A stretch of DNA of 64,000 bases from Streptomyces sp. MRC013 (GTDB taxonomy: Bacteria; Actinomycetota; Actinomycetes; Streptomycetales; Streptomycetaceae), in contig NZ_CP094264.1 of NCBI RefSeq assembly GCF_023614235.1, forward strand, positions 2,108,001-2,172,000, in the 5' to 3' direction. The notes below the pieces were generated by a model that saw only the letters and a list, made by a program, of their open reading frames with translations, was not told where the DNA came from and searched no databases. Positions 6,157 to 30,829 of the stretch are shown piece after piece; the first letter of the stretch is position 1; each line of letters starts with the position of its first letter. The position numbers and the translations under genes are program-made.

Positions 6157-7884
6157 GTGGCCGCGATGCAACTGACGCGGATGCACCGCGTTCTGATCGG
6201 TGTCGTCGTCGCCGGCGCCCTGGTCATCGCCGGGATCGGCTTCGCGGGCTCGTACGCGGCGGTGCGGGAACTCGCGGAGAAGAAAGGCTTCGGCGACTTC
6301 TCCCTGGTCTTCCCCATCGGCATCGACGCCGGCATCTGCGTGCTGCTCGCCCTCGACCTGCTGCTGACCTGGCTCCGGATCCCCTTCCCCCTGCTGCGGC
6401 AGACGGCGTGGCTGCTGACCGCCGCGACGATCGCCTTCAACGGCGCCGCGGCATGGCCGGATCCGCTCGGTGTGGGGATGCACGCCGTCATCCCGATGCT
6501 GTTCGTCGTGGCCGTCGAGGCGGCCCGGCACGCGGTGGGCCGGATCGCGGACATCACGGCCGACAAGCACATGGAGGGTGTGCGGCTCACCCGGTGGCTG
6601 CTGTCGCCCGTGCCCACGTTCCGGCTGTGGCGGCGGATGAAGCTGTGGGAGCTGCGCTCGTACGAGCAGGTGATCAAGCTGGAGCAGGACCGGCTGGTCT
6701 ACCAGGCGCGTCTGCAGGCCCGGTTCGGCCGCGGATGGCGGCGCAAGGCGCCGGTGGAGGCGCTGATGCCGTTGCGCCTCGCGAAGTACGGCGTACCGCT
6801 CGCGGAAACCGCCCCGGCGGGCCTGGCGGCGGCGGGAATCGAGCCGGTGCTGCTGCCCCCGAACCCGGCGGCCCGGGAGGCCACCGCGGAGGCCACCACC
6901 CTGCCGGTGACCTCCGCGGCGACCGCTCCGGTGGCGGAACTCCCCGGGGCGACGCCCACCGGCCCCCGCCCCGCGGTGCCCGTCCCGACGGCGCCGCAGC
7001 CCGCGGACCACGCGCCGCGGCAGGCCCCGGCGGTGCGCCCCGCGTCCGCACCGGCCCGGCCCCCCGCCCCGGTCGGGGACCGGTCCCCGGAGCCGGAGCC
7101 GGACCAGCACCAGCACCAGCAGGCTCATCCGCAGCCGCAGTCGGCCCGAACCCCCCACTCCCGGCCCGGACCGGACCCGCAGCCCGGACCCGAGGTACGG
7201 ACGGGACCCGAGACGCCGAAGGGACCTGACGTACGGACGGGACCCGAGGTACGGACAGGGCCCGAGGTACGGACAGGACCCGGAGTGGGGACGGGACCCG
7301 CAGTCGACGCACAGCCCGGACCGCGGCCCGCACCCGAACCGCAGCCCGCACCCGACGCCCAGCCCGGACCGCGGCCCGCACCCGACGCCCAGCCCGGACC
7401 GCGGCCCGCACCCGAACCGCAGCCCGGACCCGACGCACAGCCCGGACCGCGGCCCGCACCCGAAGTGCGGACGGGACCCGCGGCCGGCGCACAGGACGGG
7501 CCCGAACCGCAGGATGTCGCCGGACCGCACCCCCGGCCCGAACCGCAGGACGCCCCGGTCAGTCACGTCAGCCCCTGGTTCTCCGCGCCCAAACTCCCCC
7601 AGGACACCGTCTACGCGGGCTCGTACGACCCTGCCGCGTACGCCGGTCACGCCGACCGCCTGCCGGAGGCGGAGGAAGAGGAGGAGTACGTCCGCGCGGC
7701 GTACCGGGCGTTCCAGGCGTACGCCGAGGAGTACGGCAACCCGCCCGCCGCAGACGCCCTGGCCCGCCGCCTGGCGGAGGCGGAAGGCCTTCGGCACCCC
7801 CGCGCCGTACCGCTGCTGCGCAGGGTCCTCCCGGACTTCATCACCCGCTACCAGGCCGAGTTGGAAGCCGACCACATCGCCTGA
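6157..7884 (+). CDS. DUF2637 integral membrane protein with long repeat linker
   Basis: 575-residue protein. Residues 10-135 contain four hydrophobic segments typical of the DUF2637 (SpdB-like) family found in Streptomyces chromosomes and conjugative plasmids. A basic juxtamembrane region follows. Residues 225-470 are a low-complexity linker with many PEVRTGP and PGPRPAPEP units. The last 65 residues (AAYRAFQAYAEEYGNPPAAD onward) look like a helical, possibly winged-helix, DNA-binding end. GTG at 6157 follows AGGGAGGGG. Spd proteins help plasmid spread between mycelial compartments, but this chromosomal copy has no other transfer genes nearby, so a chromosomal housekeeping or developmental role is equally possible. 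Confidence 0.75.
   Translation: MAAMQLTRMHRVLIGVVVAGALVIAGIGFAGSYAAVRELAEKKGFGDFSLVFPIGIDAGICVLLALDLLLTWLRIPFPLLRQTAWLLTAATIAFNGAAAWPDPLGVGMHAVIPMLFVVAVEAARHAVGRIADITADKHMEGVRLTRWLLSPVPTFRLWRRMKLWELRSYEQVIKLEQDRLVYQARLQARFGRGWRRKAPVEALMPLRLAKYGVPLAETAPAGLAAAGIEPVLLPPNPAAREATAEATTLPVTSAATAPVAELPGATPTGPRPAVPVPTAPQPADHAPRQAPAVRPASAPARPPAPVGDRSPEPEPDQHQHQQAHPQPQSARTPHSRPGPDPQPGPEVRTGPETPKGPDVRTGPEVRTGPEVRTGPGVGTGPAVDAQPGPRPAPEPQPAPDAQPGPRPAPDAQPGPRPAPEPQPGPDAQPGPRPAPEVRTGPAAGAQDGPEPQDVAGPHPRPEPQDAPVSHVSPWFSAPKLPQDTVYAGSYDPAAYAGHADRLPEAEEEEEYVRAAYRAFQAYAEEYGNPPAADALARRLAEAEGLRHPRAVPLLRRVLPDFITRYQAELEADHIA
7180..7500 (+). repeat. In-gene Pro/Gly/Arg coding repeats
   Basis: Imperfect tandem DNA repeats within the DUF2637 gene, first about 18-bp units (roughly ACGGGACCCGAGGTACGG), then units encoding QPGPRPAPE. 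They vary in number and order and would be prone to recombination or length change. Confidence 0.7.
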
Positions 7885-7984
7885 CCCGGCGCCGGGCCCG
7901 GCCGGACGGCCGACGGCCCGCCGCCGCTCCTCCCACCCGCCTCGTCGCGCGCCGGGCGGCCCGGACCGGGGCGGCGACGGCGGA

Positions 7985-8009
7985 AGGGCCCCACCCGGGG
8001 TGGGGCCCT
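7985..8009. terminator. Bidirectional hairpin terminator
   Basis: An 11-bp perfect stem, AGGGCCCCACC and GGTGGGGCCCT, with a 3-nt loop. It lies between the convergent DUF2637 and lysS genes. Confidence 0.75.
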
Positions 8010-8042
8010 CCACGCGTCACTCGGGGCGGACCGCCCCCCGCG

Positions 8043-9779
8043 TCACGCGCCCAGCAGCTTGCGGACCCGCTCCGCGCCGACCGCCAGGAGCAGCGTCGGG
8101 AGGCGCGGGCCCGTGTCCCGGCCGACGAGCAGGCGGTACAGCAGGACGAAGAAGTCCCGCTGGGCGGTCTTCAGCTCCGGTGTCGGCTTCGCCTCCGGTT
8201 CCAGCCCGGCCATGATCTTCGGCACGCCGTAGACGAGCGTCGTCAGGCCGTCCAGTGACCAGTGGTCGTCCAGGCGCTCCAGCAGGAGCCGCAGCGACTC
8301 GCGGCCCTCGTCGCCGAGGGAGCCCAGCAGCTCCGTGTCCGGCTCGTCACGCACGACGGTGCGGGCCTCGGCCGGGACGTGGGTGGTGATCCAGTTCTCC
8401 GCGCGGTCCAGTCGCGGCCGCACCTCGTCGAGCGACGAGAGCGGGTTCGCCGGATCCAGTTCGCCGAGGATGCGCAGGGTCTGCTCGTCGTGTCCGGCCG
8501 TGATGTCCACGACCGAGGCGAGCGTCCGGTACGGCAGCGGGCGCGGCGTGCGCGGCAGCTCGCCGGCGGCCGTGCGCACGGCTCGCGAATGCGCGGCGGC
8601 GTCGGCCGGCAGCGCCGTGCCGTCCGCGACCTTGGCCTCCAGCTTGTCCCATTCGTCGTAGAGCCGCTGGATCTCCTGGTCGAACGCGATCTTGAAGGCC
8701 TGGTTCGGCTTGCGGCGCGCGTACAGCCAGCGCAGCAGCGGCGCCTCCATGATCTTCAGCGCGTCCGCCGGCGTGGGGACCCCGCCCTTGGAGGAGGACA
8801 TCTTCGCCATGCCGGAGATGCCGACGAAGGCGTACATCGGGCCGATCGGCTGGACGCCGTCGAAGACCTCGCGGACGATCTGGCCGCCGACCACGAAGGA
8901 GGAGCCGGGCGACGAGTGGTCGACGCCGCTGGGCTCGAAGACCACGCCCTCGTACGCCCAGCGCATCGGCCAGTCGACCTTCCACACCAGCTTGCCGCGG
9001 TCGAACCCGCTCAGCAGGACGGTCTCGGAGAAGCCGCAGGCGCAGCCGTACGCCAGCTCCGTCGTGTCGTCGTCGTACGACGTGACGGTCGTGAGGTCGC
9101 GCCCGCAGCGGCCGCAGTACGGCTTGTACGGGTAGTACCCGCCGGCGCCGCCCGAGCCGTCGTCCTCGCCGGCCGCGCCGGAGCCCTCGGCGGCCGCCAG
9201 CTCGGCCTCGTCGGCCGGCTTCTGCTGCGCCTTGCCCTTGGGCCGGCCGGCGGCCTTGTCCTTCGTCCGGTACCGGTCGAGGATCTCGTCGATCTTCGCG
9301 CGGTGCCTCATGGCGTGCAGGATCTGCGCGCGGTAGGCACCGGAGGTGTACTGCTCCGTCTGGCTGATGCCGTCGAACTCCACGCCCAGCTCGGCGAGCG
9401 ACTCGACCATGGCGGCCTTGAAGTGCTCCGCCCAGTTCGCGTGCGGGGAGCCGGCCGGGGCCGGGACGGACGTCAGCGGCCTGCCGATGTGTTCGGCCCA
9501 GGAGGCGTCGACCCCGGGGACGCCGGCCGGGACCTTGCGGTAGCGGTCGTAGTCGTCCCAGGAGATCAGGTGCCGGACCGCGTGCCCGCGGCGGCGGATC
9601 TCGTCGGCCACCAGGTGCGGGGTCATGACCTCGCGGAGGTTGCCGAGGTGGATGGGGCCGGACGGGGAGAGGCCGGAGGCGACGACGACCGGTTTGCCAG
9701 GCGCACGTCGCTCCGACTCGGCGATGACCTCGTCCGCGAAACGGGAGACCCAGTCGGTCTCGGTGCTGCTCTGAGCCAC
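8043..9779 (-). CDS. lysS: Lysyl-tRNA synthetase, class I
   Basis: Charges tRNA-Lys with lysine. The archaeal-type class I enzyme rather than the class II enzyme of most bacteria, a known Streptomyces trait. The 578-residue protein has the HIGH-type motif HLGN at 44-47 and KMSSS near 325, plus two Cys pairs (CGRCG and CACGF) near 220-255 that could bind zinc. GTG at 9779 gives the family N-terminus; a much longer open frame upstream to 10400 overlaps argS and is not coding. It diverges from argS across a 262-bp gap, so two essential synthetases share a promoter region. Confidence 0.95.
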
Positions 9780-24524: not shown

Positions 24525-26315
24525 GTGGACCTGACGGCGCTGAAGAAGTTCAAGCCCACCGCGTACGAGGATGCCGCCGACGGCTACCGCGCCACCGGTG
24601 AGACGGCCGGCAAGGCCAAGGACGCGGTCGACGTCCGGATCTCCTCCGGAATGCGTGCGCAGCTCGAAGGCGAGGCGGCGACCGCGGCCCTGAACGAGCT
24701 GAAGGAGCTGTCGGAGAACTTCCACTACGTGCAGACCGAGTGCGGGCTGGTGAGCACCGCGCTCAACGGCTTAGCGCACGACATGGCCGCGGCCAAGCGG
24801 AAGCTGGAGGCGGCCCTGGCGGACGCGCGGGCCGCCGGCTGCACGGTGCACCCCGACGGCTCGGTCGGCTTCCCGGCCGGCGGCCGGGCGGTCGACGGCA
24901 AGGTCCCGGAGGGCGGCACCGTCAAGGGCACGGGCGGCCCGGCCTCCCCGACGGCCGACGCGCTCTACCGCCAGGCGGCCGACGCGCACCCGAACCCGAA
25001 CTACGGCAAGGCACTGGAGTTCGCGAACCGGATCGCCGACGCGGTGAAGGAGGCCGCGGACGCGGACGCGAAATGGGCCCCGAAGCTCCGCGCGCTCAAG
25101 GCCGACGACGACCTGACCGTCTCCGACCGCGACTGGACGGACACGCAGTCCGACGCGGACGGCGTCCGCGACGCGGGCAAGGGCTACCTCGACTCCCTCC
25201 CGCACCCCCCGAAGGACGGCAGCCCCAAGGACAACGCGGCCTGGTGGAGGGGACTGACGCCCGAGGAGCAGTCCGCGTACCTGTCGCTGAACGCGGCGCA
25301 GGTCGGCGCGCTGGACGGGCTGCCCTCCGCCGTCCGCGACGAGGCCAACCGCGTCGTCTTCGACCAGAAGTACGCGCAGTACCGGCTGGAGCTGGCCTCG
25401 ATCCCGAAACCGCCCGCCAACGAGTGGACCTGGATCACCGCGGGCAGGTTCCCGGTCAAGGTGCACACCGACGAGTGGATGGACTGGCAGAGGCAGTACG
25501 GCGAGCGCTACGAGCACCTCACCAAGTCCCTCAAGGGCATGGACAGCATCCAGAAGCGCTTCGACCGGACGGAGACGGGCCCCGGGGGTCTGCCCGAGGC
25601 GTACCTCCTGGGGTTCAGCGCGGAGGGCAACGGCCGGGCAATCATCGCCAACGGGAACCCGGACACAGCCGACCACCAGGCGGTCTACGTGCCGGGAACG
25701 ACGTCGAACCTGAGCAACATAGAGGGCAACGTCGACCGGATGATCAGCACGTGGCGCGTGGCCGACAGCGAGGCCGACGGCAGGAGCGTGTCCACGATCA
25801 CCTGGCTCGGATACGACGCCCCGCAGGACATCTACAAGGACGCGCCGTTCAGGCACTACGCGGATGACGGCGCACCCGCCTTCAACCGGTTCCTCGACGG
25901 CCTGGAGGAGTCGCACACCGGAGGCTCGGGGACCCACCGGACCGTGATCGGCCACTCCTACGGCACGACCCTCGTGGGTTCCGCCGCCGATCACGGCACG
26001 CTCAACGCGGACGACGTGATCACCGCGGGCAGCCCCGGGGTGACGGTGGCCAGGGCCGAGGACCTGGACGTGCCCCGGGGGCACGTCTGGAACCAGGAGG
26101 CGGATGGGGACATCGTCCCCGACATCGGCCGCTGGGGACACGGCGGTCATGAACGGGGAAGCTACTGGGTGATCCCCAGCGACGAGTGGTTCGGCGCCCA
26201 TCAGATGGCCACGGACACCGAAGGCCACAGCGGGTACTGGGACGAAGGCTCCCAGAGCCTGCGGAACCAGGGCCTGGTGGTGGCGGGGAAGTACGACGAC
26301 GTGAAGCTCAAGTAG
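24525..26315 (+). CDS. Helical-domain plus DUF1023 alpha/beta hydrolase (candidate type VII effector)
   Basis: 596 residues. The first 110 residues are helical and WXG/LXG-like (VDLTALKKFKPTAYEDAAD onward). The middle (150-330) is a linker region with DADAKWAPKLRALKADDDL and WWRGLTPEEQ. The C-terminal 230 residues form a DUF1023-type hydrolase with nucleophile motif GHSYG near 477. The strand before it (TWLGYDAPQD) and DGDIVPDIG, which holds a likely catalytic Asp, also fit; a His (GAHQMATD) follows. Such proteins are likely exported esterases or lipases. GTG start at 24525, 9 bp after the first cassette gene. The product may pair with it; the following lipoprotein could be a cell-surface partner or immunity factor. 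Confidence 0.75.
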   Translation: MDLTALKKFKPTAYEDAADGYRATGETAGKAKDAVDVRISSGMRAQLEGEAATAALNELKELSENFHYVQTECGLVSTALNGLAHDMAAAKRKLEAALADARAAGCTVHPDGSVGFPAGGRAVDGKVPEGGTVKGTGGPASPTADALYRQAADAHPNPNYGKALEFANRIADAVKEAADADAKWAPKLRALKADDDLTVSDRDWTDTQSDADGVRDAGKGYLDSLPHPPKDGSPKDNAAWWRGLTPEEQSAYLSLNAAQVGALDGLPSAVRDEANRVVFDQKYAQYRLELASIPKPPANEWTWITAGRFPVKVHTDEWMDWQRQYGERYEHLTKSLKGMDSIQKRFDRTETGPGGLPEAYLLGFSAEGNGRAIIANGNPDTADHQAVYVPGTTSNLSNIEGNVDRMISTWRVADSEADGRSVSTITWLGYDAPQDIYKDAPFRHYADDGAPAFNRFLDGLEESHTGGSGTHRTVIGHSYGTTLVGSAADHGTLNADDVITAGSPGVTVARAEDLDVPRGHVWNQEADGDIVPDIGRWGHGGHERGSYWVIPSDEWFGAHQMATDTEGHSGYWDEGSQSLRNQGLVVAGKYDDVKLK

Positions 26316-26398
26316 CACCACCCCCGGGGTGTGGTCCCGGCGGTCCCGGCGGCCCGACCACCCCGTGCTCCGAACCGACCGAAGCGAGGCATCTCGGA

Positions 26399-26926
26399 TT
26401 GAAGGCCAAACTGGGCGCGTCGGCGCTCCTCATCTCCATCGCCCTGACACCCCTCACCGGATGCGGCATGAACGAAGACAAGAGCACCGTCCCCTCCGCG
26501 GGCACCAGCACGTCCCGGGCCGCGGCCGACGAGATCAAGAAGCTGTCCAGCGAGATCTACGATCTCGTCGGCGTCAAGGGGAAGGCGTCCGACGCGAACC
26601 CCGGGGTCATGGACTGCGCGGGAAGGGATCGGGAGAAGTACTTCCGGGTGTTCCACTCGTGGAGCTTCTATCCCGCCTCACCCGGCCAGCTGGACGAGGC
26701 GATGGAGCGGCTCAGGGCGGAGTTGCCGAAGAACGGCTGGAAGATCTCCGAGTACGGCCCGGACACCAGCAAGAACGGGAACCTGTCGCTGACGGCCGAC
26801 AACGACGCGAAGAAGACGAGCGTCAACGTGTCCCAGCGCGCCAAGAACGACCCTCCCAAGCTCAGTCTGATGCTCGTGTCCGGCTGCTACGAGATCCCGG
26901 CCGGCCAGGAGATCGAACGCTTCTGA
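26399..26926 (+). CDS. Lipoprotein, third gene of hydrolase cassette
   Basis: 175-residue exported lipoprotein. A TTG start with GCGAGG upstream gives a signal of the form MKAKLGASALLISIALTPL and lipobox LTGC (Cys22). After a Ser/Thr-rich linker a small domain follows with PGVMDCAGRDREKYFR, HSWSFYPASP and LMLVSGCYEI; the two Cys may be disulfide-bonded. No family recognised. It follows the hydrolase by 83 bp on the same strand. A short lipoprotein beside a candidate secreted enzyme could be an immunity or inhibitor protein, but there is no direct evidence. Confidence 0.65.
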   Translation: MKAKLGASALLISIALTPLTGCGMNEDKSTVPSAGTSTSRAAADEIKKLSSEIYDLVGVKGKASDANPGVMDCAGRDREKYFRVFHSWSFYPASPGQLDEAMERLRAELPKNGWKISEYGPDTSKNGNLSLTADNDAKKTSVNVSQRAKNDPPKLSLMLVSGCYEIPAGQEIERF

Positions 26927-27127: not shown

Positions 27128-29150
27128 TCAAGGAGCCGGCGGGCGGGTTCGGTCGAGGAGTTGGCGGGCGAGTTCGGTGAGGGGGTGGTCGGGGCCGTAG
27201 AGGCGCTCGCGGTCGGCCAGCACCCTCTCGAAGAGGGCGGTGGCCGCGTCGATGTCGCCGGCGAGCTGGTGGGCGTAGCCGAGGTTGCTGCGGACGGTGA
27301 TCGTCTCGGAGTGGTCCGGCCCGTAGACCCGTTCGTAATCGACGAGGGCCTGGTGGTAGAGGCCGATGGCTGTTTCCAGGTCGCCCGTGTCCCGGTGGCA
27401 GCCGGCCAGGTTGGCACGGGCGTTGATGGTGTGCGGGTGGTCGGGGCCGTGGAGGCGCTGCATGTCCGTCAGGTTCTGCCGGTGCAGGTCCCGCGCCCGT
27501 GCCGGCTCGCCCCGCAGGGCGTGGAGGTAGGCGAGGTTGGCGCGGGCGACGAGGGTGTCGGGGTGGTCGGGGCCGTGGACGCGCTCGTGGTCGGCCAGGT
27601 TCCGCTGGTGCAGGGGGGGTGGCGGTCTCCAGGTCGCCGGCGGCCCGGTGGGCGCTGGCGAGGAAGCTGCGGGCCGCGAGCGTGTCCGGGTGGTCGGGCC
27701 CTTGGAGCCGGGTGCGGATGTCCACCGCGTGCCGGGCGCACTCCACGGCCTCACCGGTGTGGCCGTCGCCCTGCAGGAATGCCGAGGCGGCCACGAGCAG
27801 GCCGGCGGTGTGCGGATCCTCCTCCTCCGGGGTCCGGTCGGTCAGGGCCAGCAGGTGCGGCAGGAGCTCGCGCCACCGGGGCCACCCGGCGACGTCGAAC
27901 AGCGGGTTCTCCGGTAGCGCCCGCTCCAGCAGCCGGGTGGCGCGTTCGCGGGCGGTGGCGATGGCCCGGACGGTGCGGTGCGGGTCGGCGGGATCGGGCA
28001 GGCGTGCCACGGCCTGGACCAGGCGGTGCACGGTCACGGTCTGCCGGGTCAGGGTGATCATGCTGTAGCTGTGGAGGAGGGCCAGGGCTTCGTCGACGGC
28101 CCACGGGTCCTCCCCCAGGTGCGTGGGGAGGTCTTCGAGGACGTCGCGCGGTAGCGGGACGGGAGCGAGCCAGGCGAACAGCCGCAACAGGTCTCCGGCC
28201 AGGGGCTGCTGGTCCGTTATCGCTTGGAGCGACAGCTGCCAGACCCGGGCGACGGTCCGCTGGTCGTCCGCTTCCTGGCCGCCCGTCGAGGCGGCGGCGA
28301 ACATGCGGCCCGGGTAACGGCGGAGGCGGTCGAGGTAGGCGGCCGGGCTGATGGCGGTGGACTCGATGTAGGCGGCGGCCTGCTCCAGGGCCAGGGGCAG
28401 GTGCCCCAGTTCGTCGGCGAGGTCGGTGAGGATTCGCTCGTCGCCGGGTCCGTCGGGTCCGTCGGGTTCGATGATGCGCGTGAGCAACTCCATCGCGGCG
28501 TCGGAGGGCAGCGTGTCCAGCGGGAGGGGCTGGGCCAGTCGGCGCCAGCCGGTGGGCCGCCGGCTGGTGATGACGTACCGCCCTGTGGCCATGCCCAGCA
28601 CCGGGGCCAGGTCACGTGGGGAGGCGGCGTCGTCGAGTACGAGGAGCCAGTCCTGGTGGGCCTGTAGCCAGCTCAGGGCCCACTCGGCACGCTCGGTGCT
28701 GGTCGCGGCGGCCAGCTGGTGATGGGGGTCGAGCCGGGCGGCGAGGTCGGCGAGCCCGTGGGTGAGGTTGGAGGCGGAGTCCGCGCTGATCCACCACACC
28801 GGGTTGAACCGGTGCCGGTGCCGGTGGGCGAACTGCAGGGCCAGGGCGCTCTTGCCCGTCCCGCCCAGGCCGTGCACGACCGGGGGCACCGTCGGACCGG
28901 CCTCGTCCAGGGCGGCTTCCAGAAGGGCCAGGGGCTCGGTCCGGTCGACGAAGTTCGGGTTCGCCGGTAGTGGCAGGTTGGTGGTTCCCCGCGGCGCCGG
29001 AACGTCGGCGGGCCGCCGGACGGCGTCAGCCGGCAGGTGGACGGTGCGGGCGTCGATCGTGACGTGGTCGCCGGTGGACACGATGCCGCTGTTGGTGCCG
29101 ACGGCCACCGACTGTCGGCCGGAGGCCTCGACGTGGGGCCCCTCGTTCAC
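27128..29150 (-). CDS. NB-ARC / TPR STAND NTPase (NLR-like), frameshifted
   Basis: About 674 residues after repair. A short beta-type motif (SVAVGTNSGIVSTGDHVTI) occupies residues 14-32. An NB-ARC ATPase follows with P-loop GLGGTGKS near 94, WLLVLDD (Walker B) and GLPLAL-like LGHLPLALEQAA. At least five kinesin-light-chain type TPR units follow, each carrying a GPDHPDT-like sequence with 42-residue spacing. Known STAND proteins use such repeats to sense a trigger and then oligomerise. The frame changes in a run of seven G at 27613-27619; the other frame continues the TPRs and ends at 27128. GTG at 29150 overlaps the stop of the upstream gene as GTGA, so the two are translationally coupled. 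Confidence 0.85.
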
Positions 29151-29545
29151 CGCTGGATGGTGGCGCCGTCACCGGTGCTGATGACGCCGTTGTTCGTCTC
29201 CACCGCGACGGAGCCGTCCCCGGAGGCGGTGAAGGACCGGGCCGGGAGCAGTCGGGCCAGTTCCGCGGCCAGCTCGGAGTCCTGCCGCAGGATGCGACGC
29301 ACCTGGACGCGCAGGGCGGCTTGGGCGTCCTCGTCCTGCGGGTCCTCGGCGACCTCGTCGATGGCCTGTTCCAGCCCTTCCCGGTTCTCCTCCCGACTCC
29401 ACAGTCGCTGCACGATGCGCTGGCCCAGGGACACCGTCGCGTCGGCGGCCGTGTCGGTGGTCCGGACGAGCACGGCGCTCCCGTAGGCGGTGACGGCGGC
29501 GGTGACGTACGGCACCAGTTCGTTGGCGACGGTCAAGGCGTCCAC
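29147..29545 (-). CDS. Small helical protein with C-terminal NLR-shared motif
   Basis: 132 residues: residues 1-100 are all-helical (VDALTVANELVPYVTAAVTA onward, then a run of RxxLEQ and RVQVRRILRQDSE helices) and 101-108 is a loop. Residues 112-130 read SVAVETNNGVISTGDGATI, 13 of 19 identical to the stretch at the N-terminus of the NB-ARC protein encoded downstream. This matches the known layout of bacterial amyloid-signalling pairs: a helical effector (bell-type) with a C-terminal motif and an NLR with the same motif at its N-terminus. The call rests on layout. GTG at 29545 follows GAGGGGG. Its stop overlaps the NLR start by 4 nt. Confidence 0.7.
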   Translation of the reverse strand: MDALTVANELVPYVTAAVTAYGSAVLVRTTDTAADATVSLGQRIVQRLWSREENREGLEQAIDEVAEDPQDEDAQAALRVQVRRILRQDSELAAELARLLPARSFTASGDGSVAVETNNGVISTGDGATIQR

Positions 29546-29959
29546 GGCATTCCCCCTCTGTCGGTTCCCCAGCATGCTAAGGCCACCTGCGGCCCGGTGG
29601 CCTGACGGGCCGCCACCTGACGGCCCGACGGCCGGGAGCGTCGGAAATCGGTGCGGGGCGGGGCGACGGTGGCGTGGGACAGATGCGCGGTTACACGCCG
29701 AAGGTCGGCGAGACCAGCGTGCGCGCCCGGTCCCTGCAGGACGCGCAGACGGTCGTGACGGAGCACGTCACCGACCTGCCGGCCCGCGGCCGGAAGCGGC
29801 CTCGCAGGGCGCCCTGACAGCCGACAAGGCGTTCTCCGCCGGCACCGTCGCTCACGCCCTCGGCACCCGGGGTAGCCGGCAGACGGCCGTCACCGTCCAG
29901 GGCGGACGGGTCGAGGTCTCGATCACCAGGCGCCGCTGGTGGCGATGGCGAAACGTCTC
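29546..29959. other. Intergenic region with a probable broken small ORF
   Basis: About 410 bp. A 44-residue frame at 29683-29817 (start MRGYTPKVGETSVRARSLQD) has no family match. A separate frame ends at 29966 in VEVSITRRRWWRWRNVSY. The two may be halves of one small gene split by a frameshift near 29785-29800. I see no ribosome site strong enough to call it a gene. Confidence 0.3.
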
Positions 29960-30511
29960 CTACTGAGCCGACCGGACGTAGATCCGGGTGGTTCCGGGCT
30001 CGAACTCGTGGGTGAAGAGGTCGATGCAGCGTTGAAGGTACTTGCCTTCCGGTGTCTTGAGGCCATCGGGGCACAAGCTGATCCTCCGCAGCCCTTTCAC
30101 AAGGGTCTCCGGTTCGGGCAGCCCGAGGTGACGGAAGGCAGCCGCAGGGCGGTAGTCCTTCCCCTTGGGATGGAAGTTCTCGATCATCCTGGTGTCATCG
30201 CGGATGAGCCCGCCGGTGTACGCCTCCGCTTCGGCGGTCTCGAGGACGAAGGACAACAGGCCGGTGTCGTAACGCTGCCCGACCTTGTAGCCGGCCCGGC
30301 GGTCCGACGCTGTTTCCGGAATACGAATGCCGATCTGATCACTCATCCACGCGGGAGTCACTCCTTCCTCCCAGCAACAGGTCGTCTCCTGTTCCGACAG
30401 GTCCGACGAGATGTCCTCGGCGACCCAGGAGACCACACCGAGCGTGGTGGCGGCACAGGCGAGAAGTGCCAGGAAAACGACGAACGTGGTCGGCACGCGC
30501 CGCCGACGCAT
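29960..30511 (-). CDS. Hypothetical membrane-anchored protein
   Basis: 183 residues: a short basic start (MRRRRVPTT), one N-terminal hydrophobic segment (FVVFLALLACAATTLGVVSW) that is a membrane anchor or uncleaved signal, and a soluble outer domain. It has paired Cys in ETTCCWEEG, and CPDG and RCID later. No family recognised. ATG at 30511 has a strong GGGAGGC site 6 bases away, and the gene has normal codon use. Upstream neighbour of the NLR-like pair on the same strand, but separated by about 410 bp. Confidence 0.65.
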   Translation of the reverse strand: MRRRRVPTTFVVFLALLACAATTLGVVSWVAEDISSDLSEQETTCCWEEGVTPAWMSDQIGIRIPETASDRRAGYKVGQRYDTGLLSFVLETAEAEAYTGGLIRDDTRMIENFHPKGKDYRPAAAFRHLGLPEPETLVKGLRRISLCPDGLKTPEGKYLQRCIDLFTHEFEPGTTRIYVRSAQ

Positions 30512-30829
30512 GGGCTGCCTCCCTACAGCGGCCTGGCTGAAGTTACCCCCGGACTGGTGGACACCGGCCCGGCATCGAATGTTGGCAGGTCCTGGCCGGG
30601 TGCGTGGGCGGGGGTGACGTGCCGGTTCCGGGACCGCTCCCCGGGGCCCTCCGTCCGTGCCGGGATCCCGCCGAAGGCTCCGGGTCACACCAGATCAGTA
30701 CGCGGTCAGGTAGGCCCGGGTACGACCGCCCGCCATGTCGTCGACATGGGCTTCGATGCCCTGGACGTGCCTTCACCGAGGGGATCACGTGGCCACGGTC
30801 CCTGAGGGGACGCCGGCCGTCGGCGTCGG
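30512..30829. other. Intergenic, no gene seen
   Basis: 318 bp upstream of the membrane-anchored protein gene and downstream of the GNAT gene. Frames here lack ribosome sites. The near-palindromic CATGTCGTCGACATG at 30734-30748 is noted but unexplained. Confidence 0.4.

Follow-up and report, generated by a model that had tools for sequence, protein, structure and literature searches.

Architecture of the gene pair

The window, by which we mean the whole 64,000-nucleotide stretch of Streptomyces sp. MRC013 DNA analysed here, contains two adjacent minus-strand genes that encode a small helical protein and an NB-ARC/TPR protein, treated below as candidate effector and receptor (NLR), respectively. 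The Bell-type effector gene (29147..29545, stop codon TGA included) begins with GTG at 29545 and specifies a protein of 132 aa, whose ending reads SVAVETNNGVISTGDGATIQR. An upstream ATG at 29575 would extend the product to 142 aa; the start MDALTVAN... is used at the equivalent residue by most of the aligned close homologues. The receptor, with the N-terminal sequence VNEGPHVEASGRQSVAVGTNSGIVSTGDHVTI, starts at a GTG codon (29150) that shares four bases with the effector stop codon, and this GTGA overlap (29147..29150, minus strand) is present as the initial annotation of the DNA had described it.

The two proteins carry related motifs at the ends that adjoin the overlap, namely SVAVETNNGVISTGDGATI at residues 112–130 of the effector (29156..29212, minus strand), which is conserved in homologues, and SVAVGTNSGIVSTGDHVTI at residues 14–32 of the NLR (29055..29111, minus strand), found from the sequence and by genome search. 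The match between the effector C-terminus and the NLR N-terminus that had been noticed at the outset is real, with 13 of 19 positions identical, compared with 9 of 19 in the best of 5,000 shuffles of both ends. This short motif tail is rich in G, N, S and T. When the 5.33-Mb genome was searched with a 27-aa query (E ≤ 10), the two sites in the window were the sole occurrences; the same genome holds six NB-ARC matches, yet the motif is confined to this effector/receptor pair.

The effector was also expected to be all-helical, and AlphaFold2 indeed predicts five helices across residues 3–99 of a helical domain that spans residues 1–99 (29249..29545, minus strand), leaving the motif tail without predicted secondary structure. 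Mean pLDDT was 83.2 with 63 sequences and 87.9 with 96 sequences, with pTM values of 0.69–0.73. The predicted domain is a small α-helical bundle, a feature in common with Bell/BASS-NLR effectors. Helix 1 is moderately hydrophobic (best 19-residue mean of 1.34), below the usual threshold for a transmembrane segment, and a 19-residue hydropathy of at least 1.6 occurs in six of the 63 aligned effector proteins, the window protein being one of the 63. A Pfam search with the window effector gave no match, and comparison of its model with solved structures gave no confident fold match; a membrane-targeting four-helix bundle of the HeLo/MLKL type was one of the folds considered. Among the PADLOC models, DruK matched the effector at E 0.0066, which was judged to be chance.

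Close to the pair, the opposite strand encodes an Abhydrolase_8 protein (the surrounding open reading frames are 24525–26315 and 26329–26926 on the plus strand and 29960–30688 on the minus strand). Two of the frames on either side of the pair resemble lipoprotein genes by reading and are without a Pfam match.

The receptor frame and its family label

The receptor comprises an NB-ARC NTPase core above the Pfam cut-off (28383..28880, minus strand), with the P-loop GLGGTGKS in its front piece intact by reading, and a TPR region that is split between two frames. The first TPR stretch (TPR_12, residues 455–510; 27621..27788, minus strand) is in frame with the NB-ARC core, and the remaining array of four TPR_12 stretches (27128..27754, minus strand) lies in a different frame, such that the receptor is not a single open frame. 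From the sequence and from comparison with Streptomyces somaliensis DSM 40738, the nearest named relative among those compared, the break on the minus strand was placed at a homopolymer run within 27600..27640 (about 27.62 kb). The S. somaliensis receptor gene (positions 6396–8414 of locus L073) is open and encodes 673 aa; the DNA of the two loci is 97.7% identical over 3,655 columns. No PADLOC model matched the window's NLR pieces or the S. somaliensis NLR. The break may be a sequencing slip or a real mutation, and because the frame is broken this copy may be inactive, unless a slip is responsible.

These features raise two alternative accounts of the locus. A frame break inside the TPR region would fit a decaying remnant, in which the receptor has been broken and the effector orphaned in this genome. 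We regard this as possible, though we lean against it, given that the break falls at a homopolymer run, which is a usual place for sequencing slips, and that the effector gene remains whole, its product sharing 98% identity with the S. somaliensis counterpart. A different account follows from the NCBIfam model NF040586 (FxSxx_TPR, cut-off 300 bits), against which the intact S. somaliensis NLR scores 371.8 bits, and would place the NB-ARC/TPR protein in an FxSxx-COOH RiPP system, leaving the small protein without a link to defence. The two receptor pieces of the window score 254.1 and 112.1 bits, each below the cut-off. This account is very unlikely, as the genome's FxsB-like radical SAM matches, none of which reaches the family cut-off, occur at 409.6–410.7 kb, with a weak one at 4,377 kb, and hence at least 1.7 Mb from the pair at 2,137 kb. 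The shared motif, moreover, lies outside the best matched stretch of the S. somaliensis NLR (residues 62–434), and a second gene of the window's genome, at 755 kb, also exceeds the FxSxx_TPR cut-off, so the model apparently picks up a broad range of NB-ARC/TPR proteins. The FxSxx-COOH label on the intact receptor is therefore misleading, and NF040586 may mislabel NLRs.

Conservation of the pair and exchange of its motifs

Homologues of the effector were found in number: 66 by single-sequence search and 1,192 by profile search among 7,994 candidates scored, with the named homologues among the matches listed (120 of the 1,192) belonging mostly to Streptomyces and to other filamentous actinomycete genera. 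Within the genus, 89 of 392 sampled genomes have a match to the effector family at E ≤ 1e-5, weak matches included; counted by row, 64 places match at E ≤ 2e-17 and 43 more weakly (2.8e-12 to 7.7e-6). Named relatives that carry the effector include S. scopuliridis, S. netropsis and S. buecherae. Across the wider class, matches came from 22 of the 394 genomes sampled, representing 8 of 137 genera, and fell only in families f1 and f17.

For comparison of the gene pairs, 81 loci were taken, 79 of which contained the effector; removal of four duplicates left 75, and 11 of these had no usable receptor frame downstream of the effector (some lie at contig ends), so that 64 pairs were analysed. The identical four-base overlap recurs in 50 of the 64, and a motif segment located without using the partner was found on each side in 62 of the 64 (L041 and L069 lack one).

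Several loci depart from the common motif in an informative manner. Three, all with a related effector domain, have a quite different tail that is matched on both sides: VVQQGDN and ITQQGDN in L103 (core QQGDN); QQANLGQGTMNV and QQFNLGQGTMHV in L105 (QQxNLGQGTM); and VIVGDAIQIG and VVAGDSVQIG in L049 (IQIG and VQIG). Mismatched cores within a pair also occur, with ISTGD facing VSLGD in L046 and VSLGD facing ISTGD in L061. In L063 (387–2076) and L065 (410–3140) a TPR array follows directly on the helical Bell-like domain in one protein, with the motif missing or degenerate, which is what one would expect of a motif whose sole task is to connect two separate proteins. By reading, neither fusion protein shows an NB-ARC domain. 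Bell-like domains also occur in two further single proteins that have hydrophobic stretches by reading. The one in L048 (447–1494) probably contains a transmembrane segment, besides pentapeptide-like repeats, and in the one in L104 hydrophobic segments come after a motif-like tail.

Covariation of the two motif copies

The initial annotation had named the absence of motif covariation across homologous pairs as one half of what would refute its reading, and covariation was found in the 64 related pairs. When whole terminal segments were cut without reference to the partner, the mean score was 63.9 for cognate, 44.2 for non-cognate and 24.0 for composition-shuffled combinations, and the cognate sum of 4087 exceeded the permuted value of 2851 ± 97 (maximum 3198 of 9,999 permutations). 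The motifs were also delimited, each being located by comparison with non-partners alone, taken from loci whose effector domain was dissimilar, a procedure that placed the motif wrongly for at least one receptor (L049). For these delimited motifs, the partial Mantel r given effector-domain and NB-ARC distances was 0.351, above the permutation maximum of 0.283 of 9,999, and cognate combinations scored higher than swapped ones in 1439 of 1548 distant locus pairs. With undelimited segments the partial r was only 0.194, a value surpassed by one or more of 4,999 permutations (maximum 0.199); a value of 0.617, obtained from motifs that had been cut using the partner, is biased.

The true partner headed the ranking in only 7 of 64 loci for whole segments or 7 of 62 for delimited motifs, and came among the first five in 18 of 62. 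Insofar as the true partner rarely ranks first, the motifs are partly interchangeable. The sound statement is that both ends covary beyond what their own domains explain, while the motifs are partly common to different loci.

Comparison with known motif-coupled systems

The pattern S[IV]A..N.G..STGD may correspond to BASS1. Bell/BASS-NLR signalosomes, together with ten BASS profile HMMs, are said to have their defining paper in Dyrka et al. (2020, J Mol Biol). Passages of PMC7889193 describe Bell/BASS pairs of filamentous bacteria as adjacent or overlapping genes, with a motif at the NLR N-terminus and at the BELL C-terminus, and such amyloid signalosomes are also described in parts of PMC8086366 and PMC12261475. 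The present pair resembles this description in its adjacent and overlapping genes and in the position of the motif on the NLR N-terminus and on the C-terminus of a small helical protein, and may resemble it in a mainly filamentous actinobacterial host range, going by the named homologues among the matches listed. The BELL protein is described in the same portion of PMC7889193 with a hydrophobic transmembrane helix, whereas the predicted helix 1 of the window effector falls short of the hydrophobicity typical of such a helix. The testable layout features were thus found in the window, and we conclude that the pair is probably a further member of the described Bell/BASS-NLR class and not a new class, with the likeness being one of layout, sequence and prediction. 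The amyloid-signalling layout proposed initially therefore stands with respect to the shared ends, the overlap, the helical effector, conservation and covariation, and needs qualifying for the NLR, whose frame is broken in this possibly inactive copy.

Other systems share some of these properties. In common with BASS3, RHIM and the fungal PP motif, the window motif is short, is present on both sensor and effector, and has N-x-G and G-D features; unlike them, it is without a Q-centred core. Comparison of the window motifs with one Frankia BASS3 peptide (shuffle P of 0.057 for the effector and 0.78 for the NLR) and one Methanothrix BASS3-like peptide (0.66 and 0.80) revealed no significant similarity. 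The EADs of prokaryotic conflict systems, which passages of PMC7159879 present as small, mostly α-helical domains, offer a parallel in that a core component and the effector encoded next to it carry the same element, and copies in neighbouring genes tend to resemble each other most. They differ, on the basis of those passages, in that the element shared here has about 19–27 residues and no predicted secondary structure; no globular domain common to both partners was found, the shared part being a short tail. The gene-pair logic and the motif positions are likewise those of fungal HET-S/HELLP-type amyloid NLR signalling, as portrayed in parts of PMC7889193 and PMC7885112, the likeness here being one of layout.

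A probable motif-coupled signalosome

We consider it probable that the pair constitutes a two-gene NLR signalosome, in which a Bell-type effector would be recruited by the NLR via a homotypic, probably amyloid, motif. This reading starts from what sequence or prediction provides: gene order, overlap, motif identity, conservation, cognate covariation, a helical effector and an NB-ARC/TPR receptor. On these comparisons, a role of the motif in joining receptor and effector is well supported. The NB-ARC/TPR protein would act as the sensor, with its TPR part meeting a trigger, upon which the NB-ARC core would oligomerise and cluster the N-terminal motifs of 19–27 residues. The clustered receptor motifs would then template the matching C-terminal tail of the effector, most likely by cross-β (amyloid) stacking, and clustering would in turn switch on the helical domain, assembled most likely on the cell's own membrane. 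The most likely outcome would be membrane damage, whereby the infected hypha would be killed or arrested. In this genome the switch may be off, unless a sequencing slip accounts for the receptor break. Analogy with published Bell/BASS and HET-S-type systems suggests oligomerisation, amyloid templating, membrane action, death and phage defence, and the systems relevant to amyloid, membrane action, death and defence appear in passages of PMC7889193, PMC8086366, PMC9815663, PMC7885112 and PMC12261475. A passage of PMC7889193 itself leaves the outcome of such signalling in filamentous bacteria to be explored.

The covariation and the layout would look identical if the shared motif were instead a homotypic docking peptide of a non-amyloid kind, such as a β-hairpin or a strand acting by β-strand augmentation, that forms a small stoichiometric complex and no self-propagating fibre. 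The dissimilarity of the motif to the two BASS3-type peptides tested would also accord with docking of this kind. Nevertheless, motifs published for the corresponding site of such pairs give rise to fibrils, foci or prions, according to portions of PMC7889193, PMC9815663 and PMC7885112 in which the printed examples are BASS3, and the G/N/S/T-rich tail without predicted secondary structure also argues against a docking peptide, which we judge to be unlikely. More improbable still, to the point of being scarcely credible, is that a stretch of DNA spanning the gene junction was recently duplicated, leaving shared ends with no signal function. The two copies are indeed adjacent, as such an event would leave them, but 62 of 64 loci retain a motif pair alongside divergent domains, some loci have another type of motif in both places, and the covariation across loci refutes a duplication in practice. 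With the amyloid signalosome as the preferred reading, the pairs described here form a further family of NLR pairs, covarying and coupled by motifs, in which bacterial amyloid signalling can be tested with respect to killing, trigger and pair specificity; the covariation, together with motif-swap data, suggests which pairs should and should not cross-talk.

A shared motif in a membrane protein operon

More distant Bell-like matches led to another operon, present in other Streptomyces and composed of a Bell-like gene, a gene for a membrane protein of about 240 aa and a gene for a family-3 solute-binding protein. In the example of L070, the Bell-like gene lies at about 505–951, the membrane protein gene at 951–1685 and the solute-binding protein gene at 1689–2600. 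The L070 membrane protein has hydropathy peaks above 1.6, and Pfam returned no family above its cut-off for it; all three L070 proteins were without a PADLOC match. No description of the operon was found in a limited literature search aimed at it.

With the L070 protein as query, the membrane protein was detected in 28 of 382 sampled genomes, at one locus each (L120–L147), and was absent from the window's genome. A solute-binding match on the same strand as the membrane gene accompanies it in all 28 loci, the stop-free frame that holds it opening anywhere from 1.1 kb ahead of the membrane gene's stop to 0.1 kb past it. A Bell-like frame lies upstream in 23 of the 28, as judged by E values from a small search set (one being only 0.0049), and in 24 of the 28 a stretch is common to the C-terminus of the Bell-like protein and the N-terminus of the membrane protein, for example GDGSPAIG and GDQSPAIG. 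Four loci (L142, L145, L146 and L147) have neither the Bell-like frame nor the shared motif, and L143 has the motif and no Bell match.

In the membrane-protein loci the cognate sum was 1434, compared with 862 ± 56 upon permutation (maximum 1096 of 9,999), a result that is not corrected for relatedness and is therefore a lead. Tentatively, and with somewhat less than even confidence, we suggest that the effector/motif module may be a general plug not tied to NLRs, in which an extracellular ligand would trigger the same kind of cell-death switch via the membrane protein. If so, the operon would link the same output to extracellular sensing. Some of the weak same-genus effector matches belong to this operon type, with 18 of the 43 adjoining the membrane protein. 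Among the 81 loci taken for the pair analysis, a solute-binding match occurs only in L035, L067 and L070, the latter two being of the membrane-protein operon type.
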